A stretch of 64,000 nt of DNA from Bacteroidota bacterium. Lineage in GTDB: Bacteria > Bacteroidota > Bacteroidia > Chitinophagales > Chitinophagaceae. Made by a program: the position numbers and the translations under genes. Shown piece by piece: positions 40,383-46,448 of the stretch. Under the pieces are notes generated by a model that saw nothing but the letters and a program-made list of their open reading frames with translations, made no database searches and was not told the DNA's origin. The number at the start of each line of letters is the position of its first letter. The first letter of the stretch is position 1. The stretch is taken from the NCBI GenBank assembly GCA_016868775.1, contig VGFT01000001.1, forward strand, positions 434,001 through 498,000, read 5' to 3'.

Positions 40383-41273
40383 TTAAGCTACTTCTCTTAA
40401 CGGAGGTGTTTCCAGGTCCTCTTCTTGCAAACGCATTCGATGTAGAATGTCTTTCAAGGCAGATAGTCGCTGTACCGTGTAGGGAATGGTGTCCATCCCG
40501 CTAACAAATCGCTGGATATAACTGTATATACCGATCAGGCTTCCGGCCTCCATTTCTGTTCCCATTGTTTTGTTGGTTACCAATAACGACACACCAATAA
40601 CGACCATCACCAAAAATTCCATCACCCCGAAATTCCAGGCCTCCTGATCGCTGATCCGTACTTGCCATTTGCGGAGATTGTCGTAGTGCTGACGGATCAA
40701 GTGTCCGTTTCCGCTCGTGATCACATCCACCTGTTTTTCCAATTCATCATTTTTCATCCGATTCAAGCTCCGCATTCTGCGGCCATATTGATAGCTGATG
40801 AGCGATACGGGTAACAGTATGCTAAGGCAAACCAATACCACCGATGTATCATAGAAGAATAACAAGATGAGCGAACCAAAAATATTATAGAACGCTTCCA
40901 TCACATATACCAGATCAAATTCTAGAAAATCTACTAGATCCCGGGCCAATGTGGAATGTGCGCTTAGCTTGGAGATCTCTCCCTGTTGATATCGACGCGC
41001 CAAAAATCTCGTAACCATCGACGTATAGATGGCTGAATAGGTACGGGTGTCTATCCGGTGCCGGATAGTTCCGATCGTTAACCAGGCCAGGTGAACCACA
41101 CAGAGCCAGATCAATCCGGCGTAAGAGCCCTTGATCAGGTTGTTCACGGCCATCCCCAGAAAAAGGGGACGAAGCAGGTTTCCGGCCGTTTCCAATAAAA
41201 ACAAAAAATACGTTAGCCCCAGCCGGTTTCGGTGTTGCAGAATCAATTGGCTTAAGGCAGCAAGGCGTGACAT
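40383..41273 (-). CDS. Stand-alone ABC transporter six-transmembrane domain protein (no NBD)
   Basis: 296 aa, TM helices with ABC exporter-type coupling pattern; no Walker A/B in the ORF. Confidence 0.75.
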   Translation of the reverse strand: MSRLAALSQLILQHRNRLGLTYFLFLLETAGNLLRPLFLGMAVNNLIKGSYAGLIWLCVVHLAWLTIGTIRHRIDTRTYSAIYTSMVTRFLARRYQQGEISKLSAHSTLARDLVDFLEFDLVYVMEAFYNIFGSLILLFFYDTSVVLVCLSILLPVSLISYQYGRRMRSLNRMKNDELEKQVDVITSGNGHLIRQHYDNLRKWQVRISDQEAWNFGVMEFLVMVVIGVSLLVTNKTMGTEMEAGSLIGIYSYIQRFVSGMDTIPYTVQRLSALKDILHRMRLQEEDLETPPLREVA

Positions 41274-41374: not shown

Positions 41375-42802
41375 TTAACCTCGGAGGGCTTGTTCCCGCA
41401 AATTTAACGTATTGGCCTCGGGGCCGCGGATTAACTTTTTGCAAATTGATGAACCGCATTGACAATCAAAGGGTTCCATGTGGTGGTCCAGGAAATGGGC
41501 ATAGTCGAGGGTTAGTTCCTCTCCCTCCTGAATATTGCGCAGGGCGCGTACGTCCAGTCCGTCGAAGGCCGTATTCGCCTCACAGGAATGGTTCTGCGGG
41601 GCCCATTCGGAAGGCTCCTCGTCCCACAGAATAAACACCTCTTCGCTGATGGGGTATGCGTACCGGCGGAAGTTCAATTTTTCTTCCTCGTTCCAGTATT
41701 CTTCGACGTGACGTTTCGTGATCACGCGTTGTGATTTTCCTTCGCCTTTGAAGATCACTTCTCCTTTAGAAATGTTTCGAACTGCGTAGATGCCGTAGCC
41801 GGCGATGGAATTGCCACGCATCTCATAGCATTTCTTTTTTCGCTGGTGACGCGCGATGCCTTCGGCGATCATGTGTTTCAGGAATCCGGCCTGACCGATC
41901 CCATCAAACTTCAAAATGAAATCAGCCGAGCCCTCGAATCCATCCCGATAAAAAACCGAGCATGTGAAATTGATCTCCAGAAAATAGATCTTTTGCGCCG
42001 CATCTACACGAAAATCCAATCGTGCATAGCCAACCCCTTGAAAGGCTAGAAAAATTTTTTCTGCTGCTTCGCGAAGTTGATTCTCGAGCACTGGATCCGA
42101 GCAGGGAATATTGGCATCCGGATGCAGTTCGGATGTTTTTAGCGCATAGGTTTTGAATAAACGACCTGTCGGGAAAATATATTCTACCGGCTTGAACGCG
42201 GTGCAGGTTTTTCCGTCGGCGTTGGCGGCCACCAGCACGGTAAACTCCCGCCCTTCAATATATTCTTCAGCCAGCAGCGGTCCGTACTCTTCAATGATCG
42301 TATTCACTTTTTTCAACAACTCCTCTTCGTTCGAAACACGCGAGTGCTCATCAATACCCAAACTATCGCCTGCCTTGGCGGGCTTTACGAATAGCGGATA
42401 TTTCAAAAGTTGTGAGGCAGTTTTTGCGGCCTCCGGTTTATCGATCCGCACAAAGCCAGGAGTGTTCACGCCCACACAGTAGGCCACATACTTCATCAAC
42501 TCCTTGGAGGGATCGTAGAGGTTGGTGGTGGGACCAGTGAACGGGAGGCCAAGCAACTCCAACGTATAGATCACATCAATGCTGGGAACTTCCCATTCGA
42601 GATATCCCTCACAGAGGTTGACGAATACGTCAAACCCCTGCTTGCTCAATTCTTTGATCTGTTTGTAGGTGGTGAGTTTGTTCAGCGAAATGTGATGTAC
42701 TTCCGCATCCGGCAGAAGGCGGGAAAGATCACGCGGGGGGTCGTAATTCTGATAATCGACTCCGGAAGTGGAATAGTCGGGTTGTAATACACAAACCTTC
42801 AT
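41375..42802 (-). CDS. ATP-grasp (D-Ala-D-Ala ligase-like) fused to C-terminal SET domain with post-SET Cys motif
   Basis: ATP-grasp: FVKPAKAGDSLGI, AEEYIEGREFTV, YARLDFRVDAAQKIYFLEINFTC; SET: GYGIYAVRNISKGEVIF, NHSCEANT, EELTLDYA, CQCGSSICKK. Confidence 0.88.
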   Translation of the reverse strand: MKVCVLQPDYSTSGVDYQNYDPPRDLSRLLPDAEVHHISLNKLTTYKQIKELSKQGFDVFVNLCEGYLEWEVPSIDVIYTLELLGLPFTGPTTNLYDPSKELMKYVAYCVGVNTPGFVRIDKPEAAKTASQLLKYPLFVKPAKAGDSLGIDEHSRVSNEEELLKKVNTIIEEYGPLLAEEYIEGREFTVLVAANADGKTCTAFKPVEYIFPTGRLFKTYALKTSELHPDANIPCSDPVLENQLREAAEKIFLAFQGVGYARLDFRVDAAQKIYFLEINFTCSVFYRDGFEGSADFILKFDGIGQAGFLKHMIAEGIARHQRKKKCYEMRGNSIAGYGIYAVRNISKGEVIFKGEGKSQRVITKRHVEEYWNEEEKLNFRRYAYPISEEVFILWDEEPSEWAPQNHSCEANTAFDGLDVRALRNIQEGEELTLDYAHFLDHHMEPFDCQCGSSICKKLIRGPEANTLNLREQALRG

Positions 42803-42829
42803 GGTTTCGAAAATAGGATAAAGCCCTTG

Positions 42830-43921
42830 TTATTTTACCAATTGAGGACTCTTAGGATCGATTCTTTTGGCCACGCGTTTTTTAGAGGGAGCTTTTTCCT
42901 TTCGATGAAGGGCGTCCAATAAAATGGCTTCAATGGCTTTGGTAAACGAAACCTTTGATTTCTTTAGAATGGCACCGATGGAGGTGTAATTCTCATCCTC
43001 ACTAAGTCCGCATTGTGCATTGGCCTCCAGCATATATAATTTTCCACTTTTGGCGTCTTGTCGGATGTCGATCCGGGTATATCCCTTCCCGCCGCAGGCT
43101 TTATAGGCCTGCATACTGAGTTCTTTGATGGCGGGGATCAATTTTTTAGGAGCTGCGGTGTATTCATAAAAATTCGCCTGCTCCGGCATTGGCGCCTCTT
43201 CTTCATAGATCTCCCAAAGACGGTCGAACGAAAGGAATTTTTCCGTTTTTGGGAGCGATTCATGAAATACCCGTTGAACGGGTTCGTACACCACACAATG
43301 TTCCGGGTCGTCCGCCGACCCTGTGATAAAGGTGGTGAACTCCGGTCCCGATATGAACTGCTCTACAAATAATCCATCCGCCAATAAATTCCATCCTCGG
43401 TATCCATTTCGGATCTCTTCCACTCGGGCGATCAGATCCTCTTCGGTCTGAACCACATTTTTTACACTCACCCCCATGCTTCCGCCGGAAACGGCCGGTT
43501 TGATGATCATGGGTAGTCCGACCCGCTTGCCCAACCGCTTCAGGGAACCTTTCTTTTCGGTGATGACCCGCCAGTTGGCGGTCGATACCCCGTGTTTGTC
43601 GAAGGCTTTTTTCATCGGAATCTTCGACGTGGTGATCCGGTAAAAATGTTCATCCGATCCCGTATACGTGAGTCCGAGCCGGTCCATTTCCTGAATCACG
43701 GAAACTCCTGGAGCGCCATTTAATTCGTCGCCGTCACACAGGTTCAGTATAATTGACGGACCTGGTGTGGCCGCGATCTTCCCCAGCACTTCCTGGAAAC
43801 TTTGTAGTGTTACCGGTTGCCAAGTCCATTCCACCCCCAACTCCGAAAACACCTTGGTGTATTCCTGAATGGATTGGGTGAAGTCGTAGTAGCACGACAG
43901 GTTGGGATCGTTTGATTCCAA
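42830..43921 (-). CDS. ATP-grasp ligase (D-Ala-D-Ala ligase-like)
   Basis: MIIKPAVSGGSMGVSVKN, FVEQFISGPEFTTFI, YTRIDIRQDAKSGKLYMLEANAQCGLSEDEN. Confidence 0.88.
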   Translation of the reverse strand: MESNDPNLSCYYDFTQSIQEYTKVFSELGVEWTWQPVTLQSFQEVLGKIAATPGPSIILNLCDGDELNGAPGVSVIQEMDRLGLTYTGSDEHFYRITTSKIPMKKAFDKHGVSTANWRVITEKKGSLKRLGKRVGLPMIIKPAVSGGSMGVSVKNVVQTEEDLIARVEEIRNGYRGWNLLADGLFVEQFISGPEFTTFITGSADDPEHCVVYEPVQRVFHESLPKTEKFLSFDRLWEIYEEEAPMPEQANFYEYTAAPKKLIPAIKELSMQAYKACGGKGYTRIDIRQDAKSGKLYMLEANAQCGLSEDENYTSIGAILKKSKVSFTKAIEAILLDALHRKEKAPSKKRVAKRIDPKSPQLVK

Positions 43922-43947
43922 CTGTGGGGCTAGGACCCAAATGTGAG

Positions 43948-43980
43948 AAGTTTGGATAGTTTGGATAGTTTGGGTAGTTG
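43948..43980 (+). repeat. Short tandem repeat (TTTGGATAG)n, site 1
   Basis: agtttggatagtttggatagtttgggtagttgg, 9-nt period. Confidence 0.8.
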
Positions 43981-43984
43981 GTTT

Positions 43985-44464
43985 CTAGTTTCCCAGTTTT
44001 TGTTGGATATAGGGACTTAGTTGGTAGTTGGCGAGTTGGGTTGTGGAGAGTGCGTAGGCGCCGGAAATGATACCGATGCATTTTTTAGAACCGCAGTGAC
44101 AGGCAAAAGGCCGGTCCATTTTCCATTCGGTAGACGGATAAAAGAAATGAAGCTCCTCCCCCTCCCGAATGGGTTTCAGGGCCACCAGGGTAAAGTTGTT
44201 AAGATCAAGGTGAACATTAGGGTCACAATGGTGATTCATATATTGTAAAAACTCAGGCTCGAACTCAAAATGCGTTTTCTCATCGATCTGTACGGTCAGG
44301 TACGTTGGCTTTTGGTGCAGCGACCGAACACTGAATGTAAAAAGCTCTTCGCCCTCATCGAATGATTGATTCGAGAACAACCCCTTAAATCCGGTGGCGG
44401 GATTTAAGCGAACCCCAAAGAGGTCCGTTCCCGTCGTAAGGGTTTGATAGGTGGGTGTAATCAT
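43985..44464 (-). CDS. Stand-alone SET domain protein
   Basis: GFKGLFSNQSFDEGEELFTF, NHHCDPNV, KPIREGEELHFFYPS, CHCGSKKCIG. Confidence 0.85.
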   Translation of the reverse strand: MITPTYQTLTTGTDLFGVRLNPATGFKGLFSNQSFDEGEELFTFSVRSLHQKPTYLTVQIDEKTHFEFEPEFLQYMNHHCDPNVHLDLNNFTLVALKPIREGEELHFFYPSTEWKMDRPFACHCGSKKCIGIISGAYALSTTQLANYQLSPYIQQKLGN

Positions 44465-44616: not shown

Positions 44617-45549
44617 ATGTCCACCCGCCCCGTCATTTGCATCGGTGCTGCCCTCGTTGATAAGTTGTTTCACTCTACCGATGAAGTCCTGATCGCCACC
44701 ACTACCGATGCCACCGTCACCAAAACCGCCGGCGGCGTGGCCCGAAACATCGCCCATCAATTAGCCCTGCTCGATGTGCAGGTCCAATTGATCACAGCTG
44801 TGGGTAGCGACAGCGATGGGGATTGGATCAAACAGGTTTGCCGCGCCGCGGGGGTGGGACTTGATGCCATCATTACCAAAGACGGACTGAACGGGAAATA
44901 CACGGGTATTCTCAATCCGGATGGATCGCTGTTCACTGCCTTTCTGACCAATGCCGAGAATCATCTCATCACCCCCGAACACTTAGCCGCCAACCGTGAG
45001 TTGCTATTGACGGCTTCTTATTTATTGGCAGATGCCAATATCCGGGTTGACACCGGCGAGTGGCTGGTTCGTTTCAGTCGGGAAACCGGTATCCCCTTCA
45101 TCCTCGAGCCCGTATCTGTACCCCCCGCCAGGAAATTCAAAACAGCCGACCTGGAGGGACTTTACTTACTGACCCCCAATGAAGATGAATTGCCGGTTTT
45201 GTGCACCACGGAATCTTCTCTCATCCCCCATCAGATCGAAGAGTTGCTCAACCGGGGCGTACAGCAGATCTGGTTGCACAATGGAAAGAATGGATCGGCG
45301 CTTAATACCAAAGAAAAAGTAACGAACCTGCACGCTCCTGCCATTGAGGTGGTGGATTGTACCGGAGCCGGTGATGGTTCCTTGTCGGGATTTTTATTAG
45401 GGAAACACTTAGGAAGGAATGATCTCGATTGTATGCGACTGGCACATAGTTTATCGGCCGAGATTTTACAGGTGAACGGCGCCATTGCCACGCATCTCGA
45501 TCAAAAAACATTATTGTCCCGGGTCGATCATTATTTTCCATTGACATGA
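44617..45549 (+). CDS. psuK: PfkB family sugar kinase, probable pseudouridine kinase
   Basis: GGVARNIAHQLALL, VVDCTGAGDGSLSGFL; 4-bp overlap with psuG. Confidence 0.82.
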   Translation: MSTRPVICIGAALVDKLFHSTDEVLIATTTDATVTKTAGGVARNIAHQLALLDVQVQLITAVGSDSDGDWIKQVCRAAGVGLDAIITKDGLNGKYTGILNPDGSLFTAFLTNAENHLITPEHLAANRELLLTASYLLADANIRVDTGEWLVRFSRETGIPFILEPVSVPPARKFKTADLEGLYLLTPNEDELPVLCTTESSLIPHQIEELLNRGVQQIWLHNGKNGSALNTKEKVTNLHAPAIEVVDCTGAGDGSLSGFLLGKHLGRNDLDCMRLAHSLSAEILQVNGAIATHLDQKTLLSRVDHYFPLT

Positions 45550-46448
45550 ATGAATATCTCCACATAAATCCTTCAGTTGCTGCCGCACTGGAATCCAACC
45601 GCCCCATAGTGGCGTTGGAATCAACCATCATTTCACATGGCATGCCGTATCCGAAAAATGTGGAGACGGCGCTGTTGGTTGAGCAGATTGTAAGACAGAA
45701 CGGTGCCATACCCGCCACCATTGGCGTGATGAATGGAAAATGTGTGGTGGGAATGACCAACGAAGAGATCGAAACGTTCGGTAAAGCTTCGGATGTTTGG
45801 AAGGTGAGTCTGCGTGATCTCCCTTACGTTGTTTCTCAAAAATGCATGGGCGCAACTACAGTCGCCGCAACCATGCGGATCGCCTCCATGGCGGGGATTA
45901 AAATATTTGTGACGGGGGGAATCGGCGGGGTGCATCGGGGGGCGGAGACAACGATGGATATTTCGGCTGACTTAACCGAAATGGCGCAAACCAATGTGGC
46001 AGTAGTGTCGGCAGGTGTTAAATCGATCTTGGATATCGGATTAACTCTTGAATATTTAGAAACACTGGGCATTCCCGTGGTAACGTTCGGATCGGATTCT
46101 TTTCCGAGTTTTTATTCGAGAGAGAGTGGTCATTGTTCACCCTTGCGCATGGATTCGGAAAAAGAGATCGCAGAGATGCTTTCGGCGAAGTGGTCGATGG
46201 GACTAAACGGATCGGTCCTCATTGCCAATCCGATTTCTCCGGACGACGCTATTGACCCCCAAGTAATGGAGAAATATATTCAGGCAGCTCTTGCCGCAGC
46301 CGCTGCTGCCGGCATTACGGGTAAAGAAGTAACGCCTTTCTTATTAAAATACATTGCCGATCATACGAAAGGGGGAAGCCTTGAGGCCAATATCGCACTG
46401 ATCTGTTCTAATGCCGCCCTCGGATCGAGGATTAGTTTTGGGGTTTAG
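45546..46448 (+). CDS. psuG: Pseudouridine-5'-phosphate glycosidase
   Basis: VALESTIISHGMPYPKNVETA, FVTGGIGGVHRGAETTMDISADLTE. Confidence 0.95.
   Translation: MNEYLHINPSVAAALESNRPIVALESTIISHGMPYPKNVETALLVEQIVRQNGAIPATIGVMNGKCVVGMTNEEIETFGKASDVWKVSLRDLPYVVSQKCMGATTVAATMRIASMAGIKIFVTGGIGGVHRGAETTMDISADLTEMAQTNVAVVSAGVKSILDIGLTLEYLETLGIPVVTFGSDSFPSFYSRESGHCSPLRMDSEKEIAEMLSAKWSMGLNGSVLIANPISPDDAIDPQVMEKYIQAALAAAAAAGITGKEVTPFLLKYIADHTKGGSLEANIALICSNAALGSRISFGV

Follow-up and report, generated by a model that had tools for sequence, protein, structure and literature searches.

What could two SET methyltransferase domains and two peptide-ligase-like enzymes make together? The question is raised by three minus-strand genes, with their catalytic motifs intact, that form a single cluster in the 64,000-nucleotide stretch of Chitinophagaceae DNA analyzed here (the window). 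Our answer, held with somewhat more conviction than doubt, is that this cassette directs an orphan route to a small, methylated, nonribosomal di- or tripeptide-like metabolite. This reading is built on the observed gene content, folds, intact motifs, obligate co-occurrence, and tie to an ABC-type membrane protein.

Layout of the cassette

From upstream to downstream, the genes are SETsolo, GRASP2, and GRASPSET. SETsolo (43985-44464, minus strand) encodes a stand-alone SET methyltransferase of 159 amino acids with the motifs NHHCDPNV and CHCGSKKCIG (Pfam SET, 37.3 bits). GRASP2 (42830 to ~43942, minus strand) encodes an ATP-grasp ligase of ~370 amino acids with the D-Ala-D-Ala ligase (Ddl) fold, and it carries the segment LEANAQCGLSEDEN (Pfam Dala_Dala_lig_C, 63.3 bits). 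GRASPSET (41375-42802, minus strand) encodes 475 amino acids, in which an ATP-grasp region (residues ~1-320; Dala_Dala_lig_C, 78.8 bits) is joined to a C-terminal SET domain (residues 335-434, positions 41501-41800 on the minus strand; 43.8 bits) containing NHSCEANT and the post-SET Cys motif CQCGSSICKK. All of these Pfam matches exceed the curated cut-offs, in agreement with the original prediction, whose three minus-strand genes, paired ATP-grasp and SET domains, and quoted motifs were each found in place. NCBIfam, on the other hand, leaves the three proteins unnamed, and SETsolo matches none of its models.

The genes are closely spaced, with gaps of 42 nt between SETsolo and GRASP2 (measured from a proposed ATT start) and 27 nt between GRASP2 and GRASPSET. 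The start of GRASP2 is unusual, as there is no ATG, GTG, or TTG ahead of its first beta-strand (43921-43985). The first-listed start, a TTG at 43921, would remove that strand, and the SETsolo stop codon lies in the GRASP2 frame, 48 nt from the TGG of WVLAP. Because GRASP2 likewise has no ATG, GTG, or TTG start before the first strand in its two nearest relatives, L001 (where two in-frame stops occur) and L032, translation likely begins at a non-AUG codon (ATT or ATC) at or just upstream of 43942, coupled to SETsolo.

The next gene downstream (40383-41273, minus strand) encodes an accessory half ABC transporter of 296 amino acids (ABC_membrane_3, PF13748, 153 bits), which consists of the membrane part only and has no ATPase domain. 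On the other side, the window contains divergent neighbors (44617-46448), one that we take to be a PfkB-type kinase and another that is likely a pseudouridine-5'-phosphate glycosidase. Only some relatives have both of them close to the cassette.

Conservation, co-occurrence, and neighboring genes

When one genome per species was scanned, 169 related stretches were found, the best 80 of which were examined. By title, these 80 belonged mostly to Chitinophagaceae or Bacteroidota, with a few from Cyclobacteriaceae. The order SETsolo-GRASP2-GRASPSET was repeated in most of the best 80 that were sufficiently long, and recurrence of the cluster in most of these 80 loci is far beyond chance. In two loci, other genes lie between GRASP2 and GRASPSET: an ABC ATPase gene on the opposite strand (L064, 6967-7959) and a DNA methylase with its neighboring gene (L070, 5437-7037). 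Both insertions look incidental.

Gene content pointed the same way as gene order. Among 149 genomes of the family, each at least 90% complete, GRASPSET was found in 48, GRASP2 in 49, and SETsolo in 49, and 47 genomes held all three, with presences covering 34 of the 95 genera. The associations were strong (Fisher P = 1.5e-38 and 3.6e-35), with the proviso that kinship among the 149 genomes makes these values overstate independence. The three exceptions to the full set (G504, G506, and G510) are fragmented assemblies in which the matches lie near contig starts. Furthermore, SETsolo was retained in five genomes where it is not linked to the other genes (G290, 1.7 Mb away; G434; G469; G494; and G528), so linkage alone is insufficient to explain the co-occurrence. 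SETsolo, GRASP2, and GRASPSET are a real functional unit that is kept or lost jointly. The original prediction of an operon-like unit is thus borne out, both by the recurring cluster and by near-perfect co-occurrence, and the outcome that would have refuted it, a neighborhood not conserved in relatives, is not what these 149 genomes show. It had proposed a check of conservation across Bacteroidota; conservation was found, but that scope was too wide, as the carriers amount to about one-third of a single family and a small number of others, green sulfur bacteria among them.

In a sample of 395 genomes from across the phylum, full-length GRASPSET occurred in 16. One genus (f18/g61) has a cluster of SETsolo, GRASPSET, a complete ABC exporter located after GRASPSET, and a third small SET gene, with GRASP2 absent. 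We identify these bacteria as green sulfur bacteria because chlorosome proteins were present in the four genomes tested. Their third SET gene, of ~120 amino acids, follows the ABC exporter (L127, 3812-4174; L132, 9756-10112). Elsewhere, one genome (G212) has SETsolo and GRASP2 on one contig and GRASPSET on a different contig, and two (G211 and G341) have GRASPSET only. By gene content outside the family, GRASPSET, often accompanied by SETsolo, is therefore the wider core, and GRASP2 is limited to one branch. The GRASPSET of G211 (L128, 2041-7792) adjoins genes for a glutathione-synthetase-like ATP-grasp protein, a MATCAP (QEGLA) peptidase, and an N-formylglutamate amidohydrolase.

The half transporter is tied to the cassette as well. 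PF13748 was found in 20 of the 149 family genomes, all 20 of which carry cassette genes (Fisher P of about 9e-12), and it adjoins GRASPSET in 18 of these. Its gene follows the cassette in 42 of 81 loci and belongs to the gene group in about 40% of carriers. From this tie to an ABC-type transporter, and from the full exporter that follows GRASPSET in green sulfur bacteria, we infer that some members of the lineage probably export the product; counting against export, the half transporter has no ATPase and is missing from more than half of the carriers.

Apart from the cassette and the ABC gene, only drifting housekeeping neighbors were conserved within 8 kb in the 81 loci, and these loci contained no conserved precursor peptide (open reading frame of at least 35 amino acids). 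This bears on whether the ATP-grasp enzymes might act on a ribosomal precursor, as in graspetides, with the SET domains methylating its lysines. ATP-grasp clusters of this kind are known in Bacteroidota (PMC8939145) and, like some cassettes, at times include ABC exporters. However, graspetide clusters use another ATP-grasp family and dedicated precursor peptides, and the same survey makes no mention of a SET domain (PMC8939145). The cassette ligases match Ddl-type families, with graspetide-maturase models absent from the best matches. No conserved open reading frame of at least 35 amino acids lies by the cassette, where gaps are mostly <100 nt, and the unlinked SETsolo copies share no common small neighbor. 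We regard ribosomal peptide maturation as very improbable, and the missing precursor led us to reject a graspetide cluster as an identification.

Other identities were also considered. PADLOC models gave 0 matches for the three cassette proteins and the half transporter, on which ground an anti-phage defense system was ruled out. A viral or plasmid origin was rejected, since there was no relative in viral contigs and no full-length relative on plasmids.

The ligases

AlphaFold models of GRASP2 (pLDDT 86.6) and GRASPSET (pLDDT 83.3) both have the fold of a D-Ala-D-Ala ligase. For GRASP2, the best Foldseek matches were all D-Ala-D-Ala ligases, and in searches against the PDB, the best 50 matches listed were all of the Ddl/Van type. 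The fold libraries returned the Ddl fold alone, with no hint of a substrate for either enzyme. The cassette ligases share with Ddl and Van ligases the fold, the ATP- and metal-binding residues, and the Dala_Dala_lig_C domain. They differ in that both fall far short of all the curated NCBIfam cut-offs listed for Ddl/Van families (best match of 89 bits versus 243 for GRASP2 and 87 versus 246 for GRASPSET), one copy is fused to a SET domain, and a separate, ordinary Ddl is encoded in the same genome, on contig C5.

The substrate pocket is changed, too. The ATP and metal ligands (Lys, Arg, Asp, and Glu-x-Asn) are invariant in both ligases (alignments A1 and A3; A1 comprises 25 GRASPSET sequences with a mean column identity of 75%). 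In contrast, the Glu-Ser-Tyr substrate triad of Ddl is not kept in either enzyme. At the positions equivalent to Ser150 and Tyr216 of Escherichia coli DdlB, GRASPSET has Asp and Thr, and GRASP2 has Gly and Leu. Because the ATP and metal ligands are kept while the Ser and Tyr pocket positions are changed, both proteins are probably active ligases with a specificity other than that of Ddl.

In a tree of ATP-grasp domains, for which the program warns of long branches, GRASPSET (support 99/95) and GRASP2 (100/99) formed sister clades (100/99), which suggests duplication followed by specialization. It is plausible, from this relationship, that the two enzymes carry out related but distinct bond-forming steps.

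The nearest known ligases form the D-Ala-D-Ala unit of peptidoglycan, and with an ABC-type membrane partner, the cassette might serve in tailoring of the cell envelope. In that case, the ligases would supply additional or substitute amino acids for the precursors of peptidoglycan or for some comparable polymer, and the SET domains would methylate them. Yet just a third of the family has the cassette, the genes conserved near it in the 81 loci include no Mur, flippase, or cross-linking genes, and the genome carries its own Ddl. We consider an envelope role improbable.

GRASP2 and GRASPSET also stand apart in the tree from other Ddl-like tandem ligases. Other members of the same phylum (L119 to L126) have a cluster that is another orphan amino acid ligase pathway, consisting of tandem Ddl-like ligases, a GNAT acetyltransferase, and a lysine-2,3-aminomutase-like radical SAM enzyme; we know of no characterized pathway with this layout. 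It resembles the cassette in pairing two consecutive Ddl-like ligases with small modifying enzymes, and it differs in having acetylation and aminomutation in place of methylation. Since the ligases fall in separate clades, close shared ancestry was rejected and the cluster serves as an analogy only. A further Ddl-like ligase adjoins a small protein, starting MSFYPQP...CGPFALKYALVMLG, that is possibly a C39-like cysteine peptidase (L101, L103, L105, L106, L108 to L110, and L112 to L114).

SET domains and the putative product

To our knowledge, SET enzymes are known almost exclusively as protein-lysine methyltransferases. One SET enzyme of another kind, BurB, acts on free methionine, which it methylates on sulfur (PMC12542666, PMC7496086). 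According to the work on malleicyprol, classes I and III were the only ones in which methyltransferases of natural-product pathways had been found before BurB (PMC7496086).

Both SET domains of the cassette retain their catalytic motifs. In SETsolo (alignment A2, 23 sequences), the class V features are invariant, namely an NHxxxPN-type motif, the catalytic Tyr, and the post-SET Cys cluster; the family is further marked by a short SET-I region, NHxCxPN, an FFYPSTEWxM motif, and a post-SET CxC...C. In the fused SET domain, NHxC..N, Tyr434, and three post-SET Cys residues are invariant (A1).

Among solved structures, the best relative of SETsolo was BurB (9l4t), at 55.5 bits compared to 29.7 for the best histone enzyme when a single sequence was used. 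The preference persisted with a SETsolo profile (70 bits versus at most 41 for histone enzymes) and with the SETsolo of green sulfur bacteria (51 versus 27 bits). As a control, two other SET proteins from the same genome preferred MLL3 or SETD7-type enzymes, with BurB absent among the matches listed. These are encoded by two further, unrelated SET genes in the small, 2.03-Mb genome (G000 C1:44883-45176 and C5:97678-97974), one similar to MLL-type and the other to SETD7-type enzymes.

SETsolo shares with BurB (9l4t and 9l4v; malleicyprol/DMSP pathway) a small size, a short SET-I, and a Y-x-STE...F-x-C-x-CG segment, and the place of BurB in a small-molecule pathway is like the apparent setting of SETsolo. 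In contrast to BurB, however, SETsolo keeps the canonical Asn-His, has FFYPSTEWxM, and lies beside ATP-grasp ligases rather than a decarboxylase/transaminase/dehydrogenase set. In the SET tree, whose deep branches are weak or unresolved, SETsolo forms its own clade (99/99) outside that of BurB, which, represented by a 107-residue fragment, groups with SET proteins from Eleftheria, Rhizobium, and Sphingomonas. The tree gives no support for SETsolo as a true BurB orthologue, and methionine itself is therefore not implied as the substrate. Moreover, SETsolo has Asn77 and Phe108-Tyr109 at the positions of Leu92 and Asp123-Tyr124 of BurB, and the two enzymes may accordingly differ in substrate. Taken as sequence comparisons, these results support a BurB-like action of SETsolo on a small molecule but give no support to naming it a methionine methyltransferase.

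The fused SET domain is about equally near to MLL1 (40.5 bits) and BurB (36.0 bits), and its SET-I segment is clearly longer than that of SETsolo; a peptide or protein substrate is therefore possible. This marginal preference for MLL1 and the long SET-I, together with the fact that protein lysines are the substrate of most studied SET enzymes, would suit a tagging system in which a cellular protein has its lysines methylated by the SET domains and receives amino acids from the ligases at its C terminus or side chains. There is also a precedent for the domain combination. In the open full-text literature on SET and ATP-grasp domains, the sole relevant match was human TTLL12, whose domain order is opposite to that of GRASPSET; a prior in silico mention elsewhere is possible. 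TTLL12 combines SET-like and tubulin-tyrosine-ligase-like (TTL) domains within one protein, as GRASPSET joins SET and ATP-grasp, and neither activity was detected in vitro (PMC3520985). Its ATP-grasp domain is of the TTL type, a different family, and has lost critical residues, which makes the resemblance convergent at most.

Further points weigh against tagging. The ligases are of the Ddl type, which acts on free amino acids, and have no added recruitment domain; SETsolo prefers BurB, while other SET proteins of the same genome do not; and no protein partner gene is conserved nearby in the 81 loci. We therefore think protein or peptide tagging unlikely. The original prediction, that the enzymes make a methylated lysine-containing peptide or protein conjugate, fares poorly for similar reasons, namely the Ddl-type ligases, the missing conserved precursor, and a SETsolo nearer to BurB than to protein-lysine methyltransferases. 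Lysine as the methyl acceptor of the cassette SET domains is neither shown nor excluded. The original remark that no characterized pathway is recognizable in this layout held up, as none was found.

The evidence is consistent with a pathway in the cytosol whose end product is a small, methylated, peptide-like metabolite. We infer the following order of steps on small-molecule substrates. SETsolo would move the methyl group of SAM to a free amino acid or to a small amine or thioether, in the manner of BurB. GRASP2 and GRASPSET would then use ATP to convert a carboxylate to its acyl phosphate and link amino acids in two consecutive reactions, with the SET portion of GRASPSET, the second ligase, methylating the bound substrate or product in place. 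In many carriers, the product would be moved by the ABC-type membrane protein.

It is conceivable, at a little below even chances in our estimate, that the cassette represents an unrecognized class of metabolite or natural-product pathway whose SET-fold methyltransferases, including one fused to an ATP-grasp amino acid ligase, produce a small methylated peptide, and whose range takes in Chitinophagaceae and related groups, green sulfur bacteria, and a small number of further lineages. The cassette would add two further types of SET enzyme, apparently at work in a small-molecule pathway, one of which shares a polypeptide with a peptide-bond-forming enzyme; both are retained together in a third of a large environmental family and in phototrophic green sulfur bacteria. 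It is small enough to be expressed whole, so that the product can be searched for directly.

SETsolo-like SET genes on plasmids adjoin a decarboxylase; a transaminase/dehydrogenase set; a racemase and an SbnA-like enzyme; or a SAM decarboxylase. Three of them (L145, L147, and L149), annotated as "protein-lysine N-methyltransferase" or hypothetical, are placed in amino acid operons with a diaminopimelate-decarboxylase-like gene; GHMP kinase, SbnA-like, and alanine-racemase-like genes; or asparagine-synthase-like and SAM decarboxylase genes. The cassette cautions against the protein-lysine annotation that such plasmid genes now carry, and these three are candidate small-molecule methyltransferases.
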